This document shows positions 25,912 through 31,590 of a DNA stretch of 64,000 nucleotides, piece after piece. The DNA comes from an uncultured Fluviicola sp. (GTDB lineage: Bacteria; Bacteroidota; Bacteroidia; Flavobacteriales; Crocinitomicaceae): contig NZ_CAMLDC010000003.1 of assembly GCF_946478805.1 (NCBI RefSeq), positions 223,396 to 287,395 on the forward strand, in the 5' to 3' direction. The position numbers were made by a program, and so were the translations under genes. Under the pieces are notes generated by a model. The model had not been told where the DNA came from and made no database searches. It saw only the letters and a list, made by a program, of their open reading frames with translations. How positions within the stretch are numbered: position 1 is the first letter of the stretch; each line of letters begins with the position of its first letter.

Positions 25912-27261
25912 CTATTTCAAAAGCACCAATTTCTTCACAATTGCATTTTCCGAACTTTTGATACGTACAAAATAATCACCGGCATTGAGTGTTTGTGTCT
26001 CGAAAAAAGCAATCGTACTTCCGGCAGGAATGATTTTCTCCAAAACGATTCTTCCTGTCATGTCTGTCAGTTGAACCGTTAAGTTATCTTTCACCAAACC
26101 ATTTACCTGAAGTGTCACCAAATCTGTTGCAGGATTCGGAAACAGATCGATATTGAGGTTTTCCAATTCAGATTGGGTTAATCCCGCAGGTGTCGGTGTA
26201 TAAGTCGTTGTTGTCTCTCCTACCGACGTTACCTTGGTTACCACTTTATTTCCGTAGAAGGTGGGCCCGACTGCATAAGGATAAGCTGAATTCCAGTTTT
26301 CATCCACCGTTGCAAAATAACAATAGATTCCGGCAGGATATTCCGGAGTGACACAGAAACGACCGTTGTGAATATCCAAATAATCTGCACTTGCCGGAGC
26401 TGTAAATTCATAGTCCTCTCTGAAATATCCCAAAGGATAGGTTGCATTTACTGCCGGTCCTGCTGTAACGGAGCTTCCATCGTAATATGTATTTCGCACA
26501 GTGATGTTTCTTAAGGAGAAGGAGGATTTCATACGTACGATTCCACCTGTTCCATCTGCATTTTTATAGGCATAAGCTCCGTAGATTGGAAAACCATCGT
26601 AAGCATAACCGATCAAGGGCGAATGCTGCGTGCTGTCAATGGCATACAAACCATCCGAATCATATAAATTACACACCGTAGAAATAACCTGTAAATCCAG
26701 ATCAAATGCACTAGGACTCTGATGGTGATGATAGTTTCCCATAGCAGGATGACCTTTTGCACAGTCAAAACCGCCACGTTCTCCAACAACTGCGTCCCTG
26801 TTCCAAACTCCGTCGCCAGTTCCTCCTATCGGACCTCCGGCAAGCGCATTTGTTGAATTTTTCCAGGAAACACCATCCCGGTAATCGAACAAGGCGACAC
26901 CATTAATGAAAACTCCAATATTTCCACCGGTAGTCGCTGTAAGGGTTCCCGTATTTTGGGTTGGATTCAACGGAATTTTAAAAATAGCATTCTGATCTGT
27001 AGCCTGACTAGGATTTCCATCCAGGAATGGCCCTGTGGGATAAGAAGGAATTCCATTGGTTGTGACATAAACCCAGGAAGCGGAATATTGAATCAATTGG
27101 GTATTTACAGGAATATTGTCCTGAATAGCAGTTGAGTTTCCACTTACATAATGGCTTCCCATCAATGTGGTGTTTTGTAACCAGGAAGTGACGGTTGGTC
27201 CTTGTGAGAAGGACAAGCCGGAAGAAAGGGAAAATAGGATAATTGCAGCTGTTTGTTTCAT
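25912..27261 (-). CDS. YHYH-domain protein with T9SS type A sorting signal (copy 2)
   Basis: 449 residues from the ATG at 27261; the longer reading to 27333 runs through the promoter motif and is rejected. Signal peptide MKQTAAIILFSLSSGLSFSQ. The YHYH domain spans about residues 90-320, with the core written here as NYHHHQSP and HSPLIGYAYDGFPIYGAYAY in place of the eponymous YHYH. The last 75 residues are a type A C-terminal domain (DLFPNPATD, then a KKLVLLK end), so the protein should be secreted by the type IX system and surface-attached. Its promoter-like motif is shared with the sigma-factor operon upstream, although a terminator separates the two transcripts. Role unknown. Confidence 0.9.
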   Translation of the reverse strand: MKQTAAIILFSLSSGLSFSQGPTVTSWLQNTTLMGSHYVSGNSTAIQDNIPVNTQLIQYSASWVYVTTNGIPSYPTGPFLDGNPSQATDQNAIFKIPLNPTQNTGTLTATTGGNIGVFINGVALFDYRDGVSWKNSTNALAGGPIGGTGDGVWNRDAVVGERGGFDCAKGHPAMGNYHHHQSPSAFDLDLQVISTVCNLYDSDGLYAIDSTQHSPLIGYAYDGFPIYGAYAYKNADGTGGIVRMKSSFSLRNITVRNTYYDGSSVTAGPAVNATYPLGYFREDYEFTAPASADYLDIHNGRFCVTPEYPAGIYCYFATVDENWNSAYPYAVGPTFYGNKVVTKVTSVGETTTTYTPTPAGLTQSELENLNIDLFPNPATDLVTLQVNGLVKDNLTVQLTDMTGRIVLEKIIPAGSTIAFFETQTLNAGDYFVRIKSSENAIVKKLVLLK

Positions 27262-27280
27262 AATAAAAGCATTTAATTGA

Positions 27281-27310
27281 TTAGACGACACTTTATACAG
27301 AAACCCCCGC
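27281..27310 (-). promoter_or_regulatory. Predicted ECF-dependent promoter, copy 2
   Basis: Minus strand GCGGGGG, six bases, then TATAAAGTGTCGTCTAA. The same layout with the same 17-base block occurs at 31068-31097. CGTCTAA is typical of ECF -10 elements. It ends 19 bases before the YHYH copy-2 ATG and has no TAnnTTTG element. Confidence 0.72.
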
Positions 27311-27315
27311 ACTTC

Positions 27316-27352
27316 AAAAAAAAGTCTGTCCACCGGATGATGGACAGACTTT
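27316..27352 (-). terminator. Terminator after YHYH copy 1
   Basis: Perfect 12-bp stem AAAGTCTGTCCA/TGGACAGACTTT with an eight-base loop; on the minus strand followed by eight T. It ends the sigma-to-YHYH operon just before the second ECF-like promoter. Confidence 0.92.
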
Positions 27353-27385
27353 CTCCTATCTTACGCAATTCAGATAGGTAACAAA

Positions 27386-28675
27386 TTACTGTAATGCAAT
27401 TTTTGAATAATTCACTTTTCCGTTATTTGTAACTTTCAACGTGAAAAATCCTGCAGATTCTTTGGAAAGATCTATCAATTGTTCATTTCCCTCAAATTCT
27501 GAGGTATACACCTTCTGACCAGCCATATTATAAATTTCCAGCTTTACGGAACCGGAAACGTCAGGTAATTTCAAATTAAAAATTCCATTCGAAGGATTAG
27601 GTGCAATTTGAGCATCCATTTTTTGTTGCTCTTTTACAGATAACGGCTCGGTAAAACAAGTAACGCCGGAACTTGGTATGGTAATGGTTGCCCCCATTGT
27701 AATATCTTCGGTTTCAGGAGCGCCATAATAGGAAGTACCTATGATGTAAGGATATTCCGGAACTCCGTTTCCATCAATCGTAATGAAATAAGCATATGTT
27801 CCTGAAGGATAATCAGGTGTTATACAAAAACGTCCGTTGTACACGTCCAAATCACCCCCATTCGATGCAGACCAAGCATAATCTTCAACATATGTTCCTA
27901 ATGGATAGGTTCCACTAACTGCCGGTCCATATTGTCCGGAACTTAAAGCAGTTCCATCCGGAAGTGTGGTTCTTGTCGTAATATTTCGCAAGGCAAATCC
28001 TGTCTTCATGCGGGTAACAGCACTTCCTGAATCCATTGCGGTTGAATACCCGTAAGGTCCGTAAATCGGATAACCGTCGAAAGCAAATCCGATAATTGGA
28101 GAATGTTCATTACTTGGTGTACTCTGATATAAACGCAATGGATTCGCATGACTGTGATAAGCTCCTTGTTGTTGCGGATGCGCCCCTAAAGTTGTATCCA
28201 AAACAAATCCTTCTGAAAGGTAAACCTCAACATTCCAGGTTCCTACTCCCATTCCATTGTTATTTGTTCCGTTGTAATAATGTGCATTGGACAATCCGAA
28301 TGCGGGAACGCCGTTATTCAGCAAAGCGATTGCTCCGACCAGCGGAACTTCCGTTTTTGTTGCGGGAACAGTAGGAACCCTTGGAAAACGATAGGTGTAA
28401 TTTTGTTCTGTCGGTGCACCCGGATTCAAGAATTTCCCCATGTTGGTTGTCATACCATCCGACTCAGTCCAGACATATGTATTATTATAACAGACTTTCG
28501 TGACATTTGCCAATACAGTTGAAGTATAAAATACATAAGTTGGTGGTCCTTGAGAAGCTGTGTTTTGCCAATAACTGGCAAATTCTCCCTGATTCATAAT
28601 CCAATTATCCAAACCGGATTGCGCTTGTGCTTTAAGACAAAATAAAGCTAAAACTAATAACGTGGTTCTTTTCAT
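27386..28675 (-). CDS. YHYH-domain protein with T9SS type A sorting signal (copy 1)
   Basis: 429 residues with a signal peptide (MKRTTLLVLALFCLKAQAQ). The YHYH domain covers about 85-330, with AYHSHANP as the variant core and SPIIGFAFDGYPIYGPYGY following. NPSNGIFNLKLPD and the final 75 residues form a T9SS type A domain ending in YSKIALQ. Same architecture as the downstream copy but clearly diverged, so the duplication is not recent. It starts 9 bases after the di-heme enzyme gene and is the last gene of the operon. Likely exported and exposed; substrate unknown. Confidence 0.9.
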   Translation of the reverse strand: MKRTTLLVLALFCLKAQAQSGLDNWIMNQGEFASYWQNTASQGPPTYVFYTSTVLANVTKVCYNNTYVWTESDGMTTNMGKFLNPGAPTEQNYTYRFPRVPTVPATKTEVPLVGAIALLNNGVPAFGLSNAHYYNGTNNNGMGVGTWNVEVYLSEGFVLDTTLGAHPQQQGAYHSHANPLRLYQSTPSNEHSPIIGFAFDGYPIYGPYGYSTAMDSGSAVTRMKTGFALRNITTRTTLPDGTALSSGQYGPAVSGTYPLGTYVEDYAWSASNGGDLDVYNGRFCITPDYPSGTYAYFITIDGNGVPEYPYIIGTSYYGAPETEDITMGATITIPSSGVTCFTEPLSVKEQQKMDAQIAPNPSNGIFNLKLPDVSGSVKLEIYNMAGQKVYTSEFEGNEQLIDLSKESAGFFTLKVTNNGKVNYSKIALQ

Positions 28676-28684
28676 GTATTCGTA

Positions 28685-29701
28685 TTAAAATGTTCGTGGG
28701 TATTGAAATTGTTTATTGTTTAAAAAGGTATTATCCGTCAATGTTTTCAGGAAGGCAATGAGATTTCGCTTATCATCTTCACTTAAATTGATTCCATTGC
28801 GGAGTTGGGGTGCTAATGTCGGGGATGAATGAATAGCTGCTGAATAATGGAAAAGCACCATTTGCAAGCTTCGGTACCTTCCATCGTGCATATAAGGAGC
28901 TGAACGTTCAATATTCCGAAGTGTGGGAACCTTAAATTTCAGGGAGTCCGTATGCTTCTGAGTGATTTTCATTCTTCCGATATCCTGAAGAAGTGAATCT
29001 GGAATCAACCCGTTATTTTGAAATGTCTGATTGGTAAACAAAGGTTCCGTATGGCAAGAAGCACAATTTTCTTTAAACAGATCATAGCCCTTTTTCTCCT
29101 GTTCCGTAAACTGGATTCCCTTGTCGCCACGAATAACTTGGTCGTACTTTGAATTGGAACTAACCAATGTCAGCATGAATTGCGAAATTGCCTTCAGGAA
29201 ACGTTCTCCGGTAATGGTTTCGGAATGAAAAGCTGTTTTAAAAAGTCGTTTGTACTTATCTTGCCTGCCAATCTTTTGGATTACATGGGAAAGATTCTCA
29301 TCCATTTCCAAATGATTCTCCAAAGGCGCCAATGCCTGCATATCCAAGTGATTTACAGCGCCATCCCACATGAAGCTTTTTCCCCAGGCCAGGTTGACTA
29401 AAACAGGAGAGTTGCGCATTCCAATCCGATCTTTGATCCCATGACTTAGGGCATGATCCACATGTGTAAACGCATTGTATGGAGAATGACAGCTTGCACA
29501 TGAAATCGTGCTATCCAAAGACAATACAGGGTCATAAAAAAGAACTCTCCCTAACTGGATTGTTGCCGAATCTAACGGATTTTTCTTGAAATTATAAACA
29601 GGTTCCGGCCAATTTTCGGGAGTTTTCCATAGTTGTTCCGTATAACGAAATGAAACCAAGACCAAAATCAGAGCTAAACAAAATACTTCCAATCGCCTCA
29701 T
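28685..29701 (-). CDS. Di-heme cytochrome c peroxidase/MauG-MbnH family enzyme
   Basis: 338 residues with an N-terminal export signal (residues 4-18). Two c-type heme sites are present: CASCH at residues 68-72 and CASCH at 213-217. The surrounding GRVLFYDPVLSLDSTIS and AYMHDGRY segments fit the bacterial di-heme peroxidase superfamily. Members include true peroxidases and MauG/MbnH, which oxidise a tryptophan in a partner protein. The gene overlaps the end of an MbnP-like gene (ATGA), the same pairing as MbnH-MbnP, so a protein-modifying role is favoured. Periplasmic. Confidence 0.9.
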   Translation of the reverse strand: MRRLEVFCLALILVLVSFRYTEQLWKTPENWPEPVYNFKKNPLDSATIQLGRVLFYDPVLSLDSTISCASCHSPYNAFTHVDHALSHGIKDRIGMRNSPVLVNLAWGKSFMWDGAVNHLDMQALAPLENHLEMDENLSHVIQKIGRQDKYKRLFKTAFHSETITGERFLKAISQFMLTLVSSNSKYDQVIRGDKGIQFTEQEKKGYDLFKENCASCHTEPLFTNQTFQNNGLIPDSLLQDIGRMKITQKHTDSLKFKVPTLRNIERSAPYMHDGRYRSLQMVLFHYSAAIHSSPTLAPQLRNGINLSEDDKRNLIAFLKTLTDNTFLNNKQFQYPRTF

Positions 29702-30369
29702 GGTTTCAGTTCAAAAGATTTTGCGAGTAATTGAGCATATTCAACCGCTTTTATGCACGGTGACATCACATGCAGATCGGACTTGGACAGAACAACTGCT
29801 CTCATTAATGAATTAAGGTCGATATTCAATTGTACAATGCCGGTTTTACTATTTTTCAGGACAATGCGCTGCGCTCCCGAAAACGGTGAAGCATAACCTC
29901 CCAAATGCAATTGAAATGCTTCGCGCTCCGGAGTTAAAAATGTTCCTTCGAGTTTGCAATTGATATAACCGCTTTGCCAGCTCCAATACATTCCGTACAT
30001 CGGATCAAGCGCACCATTCATAGCACCGGAAGTATTCGTGATACTATCTATTCCGAGCAAAAACCGGATCTCATCTATTTGAGCTGATTGAATAGCGGGG
30101 AAAATGATCTTCCGGGTCGAATCGATCTCGAAATCGACCAAATAGGCTTCTACCGGGTCAACAGCAACTAACTGGTCGTTTTGGTAAAATTCAAACTTTG
30201 ACAAATAAAAACGGGCTTGTTCCAACTGGAATGATCGCTCATTCAAGGATGCCGCACGGTTCAGTCCTACCAATTGTTCACCAAGAGTCAGGTTCACATC
30301 GATCGTAAGCTGTCCCCAACTCATAAGAGGAAACAGAAACAGAAAACAATATATAAACGCTTTTATCAA
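29698..30369 (-). CDS. MbnP-like copper-binding family protein
   Basis: 223 residues with a signal peptide ending at MSWGQ. The MbnP family motifs are visible: ARFYLSKFEFY near residues 52-62, then LDPMYGMYWSWQSGYINCKLEG near 121-142 (W129 and W131), HLGGY near 156 and a C-terminal helix. Family MbnP binds copper after a tryptophan is turned into kynurenine by its di-heme partner. It uses a TTG start that shares TTGA with the previous stop, as no ATG occurs before MSWGQ. Adjacent to the di-heme enzyme; Cys138 and Cys207 might add ligands. Confidence 0.85.
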   Translation of the reverse strand: MIKAFIYCFLFLFPLMSWGQLTIDVNLTLGEQLVGLNRAASLNERSFQLEQARFYLSKFEFYQNDQLVAVDPVEAYLVDFEIDSTRKIIFPAIQSAQIDEIRFLLGIDSITNTSGAMNGALDPMYGMYWSWQSGYINCKLEGTFLTPEREAFQLHLGGYASPFSGAQRIVLKNSKTGIVQLNIDLNSLMRAVVLSKSDLHVMSPCIKAVEYAQLLAKSFELKP

Positions 30370-30800
30370 CGTTTAGGTCCTTTTGGTGGTGAAAACAAGT
30401 GTGCGATTTCCTGATTCAATTCCTTGAAATACTTTTTTTGATCCGGTCTGCACAATGCTTCAATCTCTTTGAAGTGGTTGAAATGAATGTGTTCGATCTT
30501 TGCCTCTACATTCAAGATCTCCTGCAATATGCTGTCTGAAAAAGGAGCTTCCAGGTTTGAATACAATTGTTGTTTTTGATTCTGCAACTGTTGTTCCGCA
30601 CTTTCAATTGCTTTCCGGTGACTACGAATCAATACATCATATTTAAGAACCTGCTTTTCATCAAAATGCAATTTCTCAATGATTTCATTTCTTGGTCCAT
30701 GATGCCTGCGCTCAGGAGCCATCCACCATTTATAAATGAACAGGGCATTACTTAAAAGCAATACAACAATGAACCCGTTCCTGATCAAAGACTTTTTCAT
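30366..30800 (-). CDS. Periplasmic heavy-metal sensor, CpxP/ZraP/Spy-like
   Basis: 144 residues. One membrane segment at residues 8-28, then a short Arg/His patch (PERRHHGPR, about 29-37) and an all-helical periplasmic domain, matching the heavy-metal-resistance/CpxP fold of small periplasmic proteins that sense metals or misfolded protein. It overlaps both neighbours by 4 bases. The position between anti-sigma and MbnP suggests it tunes the sigma factor in response to metal, which is inference. Confidence 0.8.
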   Translation of the reverse strand: MKKSLIRNGFIVVLLLSNALFIYKWWMAPERRHHGPRNEIIEKLHFDEKQVLKYDVLIRSHRKAIESAEQQLQNQKQQLYSNLEAPFSDSILQEILNVEAKIEHIHFNHFKEIEALCRPDQKKYFKELNQEIAHLFSPPKGPKR

Positions 30801-31054
30801 GGGTACAATTGATTTGTTGGAGCAAGGTTCATTTCGGAAACCAGGTTCTCATCCTTATCCGCATTCCCTCTTCCCAAAATCATCACATTCAGTGCAATGA
30901 TCAATGCAATTCCGGTGAGATAAACAACCGTTTGTCTTGTTGACAGCCTGTCAAAAAGCTCTTCCTGCACCTTCGCGCGGATACGTGTAAAGAGAAACGG
31001 GGGAACTTCCACCCGTTCAATCTTTCCCAAACTTTGTAACTGATCTTTTTCCAT
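30797..31054 (-). CDS. Probable anti-sigma factor
   Basis: 85 residues from the ATG at 31054; a GTG at 31078 is in frame but lies inside the promoter motif. About 45 cytoplasmic residues (EVPPFLFTRIRAKVQEELF), one membrane segment (VVYLTGIALIIALNVMIL) and a 20-residue periplasmic tail. This is the layout of small membrane anti-sigma factors encoded directly after ECF genes. No zinc-anti-sigma HxxxCxxC motif is present, so it is of a non-ZAS type if the call is right. Confidence 0.65.
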   Translation of the reverse strand: MEKDQLQSLGKIERVEVPPFLFTRIRAKVQEELFDRLSTRQTVVYLTGIALIIALNVMILGRGNADKDENLVSEMNLAPTNQLYP

Positions 31055-31067
31055 ATTGTTCACTTTG

Positions 31068-31097
31068 TTAGACGACACTTTATAGTTTATCCCTCGC
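31068..31097 (-). promoter_or_regulatory. Predicted ECF-dependent promoter, copy 1
   Basis: Minus strand GCGAGGG, six bases, then TATAAAGTGTCGTCTAA, matching 27281-27310 in 23 of 30 positions, with the last 17 identical. The -35-like part lies in the 3' end of the sigma gene and the block ends 13 bases before the anti-sigma ATG. It would drive the anti-sigma-to-YHYH genes. Confidence 0.72.
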
Positions 31098-31590
31098 CAC
31101 CTTCTATTTTTTTTGAAAGATTTGTTTTTGCCCGTTGGATCAACGATTCCACTGCCTTTGCCGAAAGCTCCATAATACCGGCTATTTCCACAATCGGAAG
31201 CTGTTCAATCTTATTCAGGATCAATGAGGTTTTTTGATTATCCGGCAATTCGTTGATACACGAAAAAATAAATGCGATTTCTTCCTTGTTTTCCATCAAG
31301 ACCCCCGGATGATTGAATTCCACCGAGTCGTTTTCGGAAAGTTCATTGGTAAACCAGGAAAAACGTTTTTTCCGCTTTTTAGCTTTTAAAAAATCCAATG
31401 ATTTATTGATTGTGATCCGGTAGAGCCAGGTACCGTGATTGGATTCATGCCGGAATTTATCCAGTGACCTGTAAGCTGCCAGGAAAACATCCTGCGTGAT
31501 TTCTTCCGCATCGTTCACATTCTGAACATACTGCAACGCCAGGTTATAAACCTGTTCGGCATGTTTTTCATACAGTAGCTCTAATGTCAT
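31087..31590 (-). CDS. ECF-type RNA polymerase sigma factor
   Basis: 167 residues. Sigma region 2 spans about 5-75 (NVNDAEEITQDVFLAAYRSL; WLYRITINKSLDF), and region 4 about 110-160 (INELPDNQKTSLILNKIEQLPIVEIA, then an HTH with SAKAVESLIQRAK). No region 1.1 or 3, so it is a group 4 sigma. It heads a six-gene operon with its probable anti-sigma factor, a metal sensor, MbnP, a di-heme enzyme and YHYH. The promoter before it is not obvious; the ECF-like motif lies downstream, in front of the anti-sigma gene. Confidence 0.95.
   Translation of the reverse strand: MTLELLYEKHAEQVYNLALQYVQNVNDAEEITQDVFLAAYRSLDKFRHESNHGTWLYRITINKSLDFLKAKKRKKRFSWFTNELSENDSVEFNHPGVLMENKEEIAFIFSCINELPDNQKTSLILNKIEQLPIVEIAGIMELSAKAVESLIQRAKTNLSKKIEGGEG

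Follow-up and report, generated by a model that had tools for sequence, protein, structure and literature searches.

In a 64,000-nucleotide stretch from an uncultured Fluviicola sp. (contig NZ_CAMLDC010000003.1, positions 223,396 to 287,395; hereafter the window), seven genes on the minus strand, running from 31590 to 25912, encode an extracytoplasmic function (ECF) sigma factor, a one-helix anti-sigma-like protein, a Spy/CpxP-like sensor, an MbnP-family protein, an MbnH-type di-heme enzyme and two YHYH proteins, YHYH1 and YHYH2, in that order. The genes, their order and the two copies of a promoter that they carry are conserved in relatives, and the promoter is nearly exclusive to this module. 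The module is real and conserved, and it very probably constitutes a single regulon. We consider it probable that the module forms a regulon dedicated to envelope sensing, built as a CnrYXH-like circuit for copper handling in the envelope and at the cell surface. The copper part of this reading is likely, with two kinds of support, the MbnP/MbnH pair and SCO1/SenC proteins encoded near a second lineage of shorter YHYH proteins. A preliminary description of the window had proposed a copper- or peroxide-responsive surface system, and it is the copper half of that proposal which these partners favor. The sensor, the promoter and the two kinds of copper-related partner turn YHYH, until now a name, into a testable hypothesis: surface proteins of a widespread family gain a link to copper that can be tested, and a candidate circuit for the regulation of the MbnP/MbnH pair becomes available in organisms that have been cultivated, namely Fluviicola chungangensis and two Chryseobacterium species.

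A seven-gene module with two promoter copies

The coordinates and order of the genes were confirmed as follows.

31087..31590, minus strand: ECF sigma factor, 167 amino acids (Pfam Sigma70_r2, E 1.2e-17; r4_2, E 1.9e-11)
31068..31097, minus strand: promoter copy 1, GCGAGGG-N14-GTCGTCTAA, 0 mismatches; overlaps the sigma gene at its end and lies directly ahead of the anti-sigma gene, as in relatives
30797..31054, minus strand: one-helix anti-sigma-like protein, ATG at 31054; putative role from position, one membrane segment and 21 aligned sequences
30366..30800, minus strand: membrane-anchored Spy/CpxP-like sensor, 144 amino acids (profile match to Spy in the PDB); conserved His61, His109, Phe110 and Cys117
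29698..30369, minus strand: MbnP-family protein (PF20243, E 2.3e-35) with a YWxWxSGYIxxKxEG motif
28685..29701, minus strand: MbnH/MauG-type di-heme enzyme (CCP_MauG PF03150, E 4.4e-53); two CxxCH motifs and Tyr at the MauG-type axial position
27386..28675, minus strand: YHYH1, 429 amino acids, with a type IX secretion system (T9SS) tail (PF14240, E 9.1e-44; PF18962, E 2.9e-10)
27328..27349, minus strand: terminator-like hairpin with a T run behind it, located after YHYH1 and ahead of promoter copy 2
27281..27310, minus strand: promoter copy 2, GCGGGGG-N14-GTCGTCTAA, 1 mismatch; precedes YHYH2, with comparable sites before the YHYH genes of relatives
25912..27264, minus strand: YHYH2, 450 amino acids from the ATG at 27264, T9SS-tailed (PF14240, E 1.9e-59; PF18962, E 9.4e-12)

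Successive genes from the anti-sigma through the sensor and MbnP to MbnH overlap by 4 nt. These gene calls, the order and the overlaps agree with the preliminary description, as does its placing of the second YHYH gene behind a promoter copy of its own; the starts of the anti-sigma and YHYH2 genes had to be moved to the ATGs at 31054 and 27264, which are the likely starts because the longer reading frames are overlapped by the promoter. The hairpin at 27349-27328 draws its weight from position only, since terminator-like sites are no commoner in the whole scan (5) than in shuffled sequence (5.3).

The repeated motif described earlier, the 17-mer TATAAAGTGTCGTCTAA, has two exact copies in the window, where 0.13 matches are expected at up to three mismatches and two were reached in 0 of 100 shuffles. 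A longer bipartite promoter, GCGARGG-N14-GTCGTCTAA, has this motif as its downstream part; the promoter copies stand between the sigma and anti-sigma genes and before YHYH2. These two sites, with 0 and 1 mismatches, are the sole matches to the bipartite pattern in the window at up to three mismatches; two such loose matches occur in 9 of 100 shuffles, and the regulon was assessed in the genomes of relatives. Genome-wide, the 17-mer at three mismatches gave 9 matches against 27 for a reversed-pattern control, and because it was too loose on its own we adopted the bipartite pattern. That pattern at three mismatches also gave fewer matches than its reversed control in all six relatives' genomes, so we used the ranks of 0 and 1 mismatch and judged two-mismatch sites singly. 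The best match falls in the module locus in five of the six. Fluviicola chungangensis has two exact sites, before the anti-sigma gene and before YHYH2, and another Fluviicola genome (G002) has one, before the anti-sigma gene. In C. edaphi an exact site precedes YHYH and a two-mismatch site the anti-sigma gene; the corresponding sites have one and two mismatches in Chryseobacterium cheonjiense and one and three in G006. A locus of G003 that carries MbnP, MbnH and YHYH genes and lacks the sigma gene has no bipartite site.

Surveying 399 genomes from the order for the motif yielded 14 exact sites in 10 genomes. Thirteen of them lie at the boundary between sigma and anti-sigma genes or directly before a YHYH gene of homologous modules, and one lies elsewhere; because three of the 13 come from the genomes that defined the motif, the independent figure for exact module sites is 10 of 11. 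We scored 24 module loci, part of them found through the motif. Sites of at least 13/16 occurred at 17 of the 23 anti-sigma genes and at 15 of the 25 YHYH genes, and none of the 25 sigma genes had one; among random windows of the same loci, the real sites counted in, 50 of 4800 scored as high. With spacings of 13-16 nt allowed, 31 of the 32 sites scoring at least 13/16 have 14 nt. At the loci that were not motif-found, among which we count L192 and L193 from the sensor search, the same score was reached at 8 of 14 anti-sigma and 8 of 17 YHYH genes, six motif-defining sites included. The idea of a shared promoter is thereby strongly supported. Sites at the anti-sigma and YHYH genes, and none of this quality at sigma genes, suggest that the promoter governs the brake and the outputs and not the sigma gene itself; induction of the anti-sigma protein would amount to negative feedback. 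In L056, both promoters have the variant ACATCTAA in common, as co-drift of sigma factor and promoter would predict.

Weaker matches are more scattered. Two-mismatch sites in L098 and L103 lie between sigma and anti-sigma genes, and those in L095, L096 and L105 lie within or behind unrelated genes; the L096 copy, in G006, stands behind a gene that resembles, by eye, a heavy-metal resistance-nodulation-division efflux pump, and points away from it. The 399-genome survey gave 15 one-mismatch matches, two of them in G428 and G559; of the other 13, whose neighborhoods were read, three are in the module (G362, G599 and G302) and ten outside it. We give the outside sites little weight because reversed controls also produce scattered matches. 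The site in L177 falls inside a coding gene.

YHYH proteins, their partners and their conservation

YHYH1 and YHYH2 are clear members of family PF14240, with 150.2 and 201.3 bits against a gathering score of 25, and both have the T9SS sorting domain above cut-off by PF18962 and TIGR04183, from which export by the T9SS would be expected. The promoter before the YHYH genes and these tails make it well supported, as far as sequence can tell, that the YHYH proteins are a secreted output of this sigma factor, as the preliminary description had supposed. The closest named relatives of YHYH1 are from Fluviicola, at 87-89% in the relatives search, which returned 2661 relatives at E <= 0.001; the family also occurs in phages and giant viruses. 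In the YHYH domain His166, His174, His176, His191 and Asp200 are nearly invariant (83 or 84 of 84 rows each), a set consistent with a metal site. A PDB search with the structure model of the long YHYH domain (pLDDT, a predicted confidence score, of 96) gave no match, although one may have been missed. In the publications consulted the family appears only as a predicted zinc hydrolase of phage tails (PMC7824862) or as a host-recognition domain (PMC7029224). The literature searched holds no link of YHYH to copper or to a sigma factor, no tested YHYH function, and nowhere YHYH and MbnP together, the word YHYH being absent from PMC3621798; a search by titles and abstract openings, with subscription papers mostly outside its scope, found no description of the ECF, MbnP, di-heme and YHYH combination.

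The MbnP-family protein scores 122.6 bits against PF20243 (gathering score 27) and, in an alignment of 39, keeps the W-x-W motif, as YWSWQSGY in the window, which we take to be linked to kynurenine. The di-heme enzyme scores 180.4 bits against PF03150 (25.6), has CASCH twice and matches PDB entry 6e1c ('Di-heme enzyme') at E 2e-35; the entry is presumably MbnH of Methylosinus, and the Tyr of our enzyme aligns with its Tyr at what we take to be the position of the axial ligand. Tyr, and not the Met of classical peroxidases, occupies this position in 52 of 53 aligned di-heme partners, with a gap in the other one. In work on MbnP/MbnH and copper from 2021, kynurenine was reportedly made in MbnP by MbnH, and by analogy with these families the enzyme would form kynurenine in the MbnP protein here, allowing it to bind copper. 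As in the MbnP/MbnH, MopE/SACCP and CorA/CorB pairs, the genes for a MauG-type di-heme enzyme and its copper-protein partner occur together, and the Trp motif of MbnP is kept. Conversion of Trp to kynurenine is proposed or shown for related pairs of the MopE/CorA type in PMC3912023 and PMC3621798. The regulators differ, a sigma factor and Spy/CpxP-like sensor here versus MbnI/MbnR with a TonB receptor in PMC3621798.

The neighborhood recurs in Fluviicola, Chryseobacterium and other Bacteroidota, and the conservation check proposed in the preliminary description was passed. Among the best 80 of 360 loci, fetched with the YHYH profile alone, eight have the full set of sigma factor, sensor, MbnP, MbnH and YHYH, and two more have sigma factor, sensor and YHYH; MbnH is present in 31 and MbnP in 22 (cluster counts include the window). 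In nine of these best 80, an MbnH-type enzyme lies beside YHYH or one gene away with no MbnP by profile, and Pfam found no MbnP in 11 neighbors of such loci. Low-scoring matches to the YHYH profile (about 18-104 bits in this set) were dropped before counting as T9SS tails, and such matches were treated alike in the phylum draw and among the shorter YHYH loci described below; those tested by Pfam were T9SS tails with other domains or none. Around one YHYH gene, at L124:5411-13964, there are two MbnP-like and three di-heme genes.

A draw of 296 Bacteroidota genomes (G001 is its centre and G004 was known beforehand) contained PF14240 in 34 and MbnP over cut-off in 77. Of 22 genomes with a strong PF14240 match (E < 1e-40), eight have MbnP within 2.5 kb and nine have MbnH near YHYH; by profile 15 are of the long type, including all nine with MbnH near, and seven are of another type, with none. 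Among 199 Planctomycetota genomes, 16 have PF14240 at E <= 1e-25, six of the long type and ten of the other. In four of the six long-type genomes a MauG-like enzyme adjoins YHYH or lies one gene away, without MbnP; none of the ten shows this placement. Four long-type genomes, G695 (the centre of the draw), G697, G700 and G702, had contributed to the 80-locus set; the remaining two, G732 and G775, were new, and each has a MauG-like enzyme near YHYH. At two Planctomycetota loci (L053:11179-11523 and L062:8080-8565) a YtkA-like protein (PF13115) joins the YHYH and MauG-like pair.

A second set consisted of 19 neighborhoods of weaker-matching, mostly shorter YHYH proteins, a hand-picked subset in which four were picked for an adjacent sensor. 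Sigma, anti-sigma and sensor genes precede the short YHYH gene in L214, L215 and L216; in L217 it follows sigma and sensor genes. These stretches contain six sites of at least 13/16: three directly before short YHYH genes (14/16 in L214, 13/16 in L215 and L220), one between sigma and anti-sigma genes (L218) and two elsewhere (L214 and L228). A SCO1/SenC protein is encoded near the short YHYH in 13 of the 19 loci, and at three of these 13 the complete trio of sigma, anti-sigma and sensor genes also stands ahead of YHYH; Pfam identified SCO1/SenC in all six loci tested. The SCO profile, built from ten proteins of which six were assigned by Pfam and four by motif, recovered these and three more, and found nothing in four other sets of reading frames. 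SCO1 delivers copper, and SCO1/SenC is a family of copper chaperones. It accompanies YHYH in the short lineage and is absent from the window's module.

The proposed sensing circuit and alternative explanations

The three genes at the head of the module resemble CnrYXH of Cupriavidus metallidurans (plasmid pMOL28), where an ECF sigma factor, a short one-helix anti-sigma protein and a membrane-anchored sensor are likewise encoded in one operon. The sigma factor is 27% identical to CnrH over 163 aligned positions. The sensor-like protein matched nothing below E 0.07 in Pfam; a profile of 22 homologues found Spy in the PDB at E 1.2e-5, with CnrX not listed, and aligned weakly with CnrX in hhalign (E 3.3e-4, probability 38%, 125 columns). 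The anti-sigma-like protein, whose membrane helix was judged by eye, has no Pfam or NCBIfam match and no detectable similarity to CnrY (E 0.46 over 25 columns), and because this homology fails we call the circuit CnrYXH-like in its working and do not file it as CnrYXH. The order also differs, Y-X-H there and sigma, anti-sigma, sensor here, as do the promoter copy after the sigma gene and the outputs, which are MbnP, MbnH and YHYH with no efflux pump. After the membrane helix, the C terminus of the anti-sigma family has a largely conserved N-x-L-Y, at which the sensor might dock. Next to cnrYXH on pMOL28, a 40-residue protein named 'YHYH domain-containing' (L197:22905-23027) was set aside, as it belongs to NF033223, not PF14240, and shares the name alone.

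We suggest that the periplasmic sensor and the one-helix anti-sigma protein would keep the sigma factor inactive until a periplasmic change, most likely in copper, releases it, as the families and the analogy with CnrYXH imply. The sigma factor would then drive promoter copy 1, for the anti-sigma protein, sensor, MbnP, MbnH and YHYH1, and promoter copy 2, for YHYH2 behind the terminator; the brake would be induced, the sigma factor itself not. MbnH would oxidize a Trp of MbnP, which could then bind copper in the envelope, and the T9SS-exported YHYH proteins would be the surface part of the copper-handling response. It is association that points to copper as the cue and to this role for YHYH. 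Between the two directions of a copper response, we slightly prefer scarcity and acquisition over excess. More speculatively, and rather doubtfully when taken as a whole, YHYH may be a new class of cell-surface copper protein with a fold unseen in the PDB, matured or loaded by MauG/MbnH in the long lineage or assisted by SCO1/SenC in the short one, with a CnrX-like sigma circuit as the common controller across Bacteroidota.

Several observations weigh against the copper regulon. A good promoter match is absent at six of 23 anti-sigma and ten of 25 YHYH genes, and deep-branching loci have only a related variant. The full module of G463 (L192) has a weak site only (13/16, spacing 15), and the exact site of that genome lies elsewhere, at L174:9723, before a T9SS arylsulfotransferase-like gene followed by a CotH gene. 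The best site of L193 (12/16) precedes the sigma gene, contrary to the rule. One His of CnrX pairs with His109 of the sensor, and the Met four residues on, which together with that His we take to be a metal ligand, pairs with no Met; the conserved His109 and Cys117 are candidate ligands of a putative metal site. Bacteroidota relatives of the sensor lie mostly away from YHYH: of 104 matches (E <= 1e-12, in 100 of the 296 genomes), eight have a PF14240 match at a distance of about 3 kb or less. MbnP reaches 39.3 bits against NCBIfam TIGR04052 (cut-off 140) and the enzyme 214.3 bits against TIGR04039 (cut-off 362.85), so that we call them MbnP-family by Pfam and MbnH-type, not the respective equivalogs. 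Finally, G197 (L218) has sigma, anti-sigma, sensor, MbnP and MbnH genes with a 14/16 promoter site and no YHYH beside them; from this arrangement and that of G003 (L193), where sigma factor, sensor and YHYH occur without adjacent MbnP or MbnH, the parts seem to recombine around the circuit.

The nearest competitor keeps the circuit and has it answer copper excess, with MbnP and YHYH sequestering the surplus. CnrX-type sensors respond to metal excess and CnrYXH is annotated as nickel resistance, which gives this reading a real chance, albeit one below even. It sits poorly with a module that has no efflux pump and whose sole exact site outside precedes an arylsulfotransferase gene, and with the role of SCO1 in delivering copper. 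The MopE/CorA-type pairs, which according to PMC3912023 and PMC3621798 are copper-repressed, also point the opposite way. Under a different proposal the MauG-type enzyme pairs with or acts on YHYH itself, and MbnP is a second, optional substrate. The loci with the enzyme near YHYH and no MbnP, nine of the best 80 of 360 and four of the six long-type Planctomycetota genomes, fit this, as do Trp25 and Trp147 of YHYH, invariant in 83 of 83 and 84 of 84 aligned rows. The two residues are not diagnostic, however, because they are also kept where MbnH is not adjacent: each is present in 56 of 56 proteins beside MbnH, and away from it Trp147 is kept in 58 of 58 and Trp25 in 53 of 58. Moreover, YHYH has a T9SS tail and MbnH has none, and in G003 the locus L193, with sigma factor, sensor and YHYH, lacks an adjacent enzyme; we regard the proposal as unlikely.

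Somewhat less likely still is a response to peroxide or general envelope stress, in which MbnH is a peroxidase, YHYH repairs or shields the surface and copper is incidental. The Spy/CpxP family does include stress chaperones, di-heme enzymes as a family use peroxide, and in C. cheonjiense a two-mismatch site (L097) precedes another MauG-type gene. Against these stand the Tyr in place of the peroxidase Met and the recurrent partners of YHYH, which are MbnH and MbnP, or SCO1/SenC for the short lineage; beyond the enzyme type nothing is specific for peroxide, peroxide-defence genes not having been sought by family among the neighbors. It is very improbable that the genes adjoin by chance or through common ancestry and that the motif is a generic -10 element of ECF promoters in the order. 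CGTC does occur at the -10 position of many ECF promoters, and gene order is inherited among relatives, but exact matches are almost confined to the module, the 14-nt spacing is nearly constant, a different YHYH lineage shows the link as well, and the pair of YHYH and enzyme is found in another phylum.

Further sites and genes

Besides the copper regulon proposed here, a few sites and genes outside its core were recorded. In G351, where the sensor profile finds nothing, a related site with one mismatch (L178:9971) precedes a T9SS arylsulfotransferase-like gene; this site and the one in G463 may mark a further target or may be due to chance. A one-mismatch copy at L171:6890 in G666, which also carries the module, precedes a VTC-DUF4956 cluster and may be a chance match. 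The module of L026 includes an arylsulfotransferase-like gene with a T9SS tail (L026:11118-12797), placed between the YHYH and MbnP genes.

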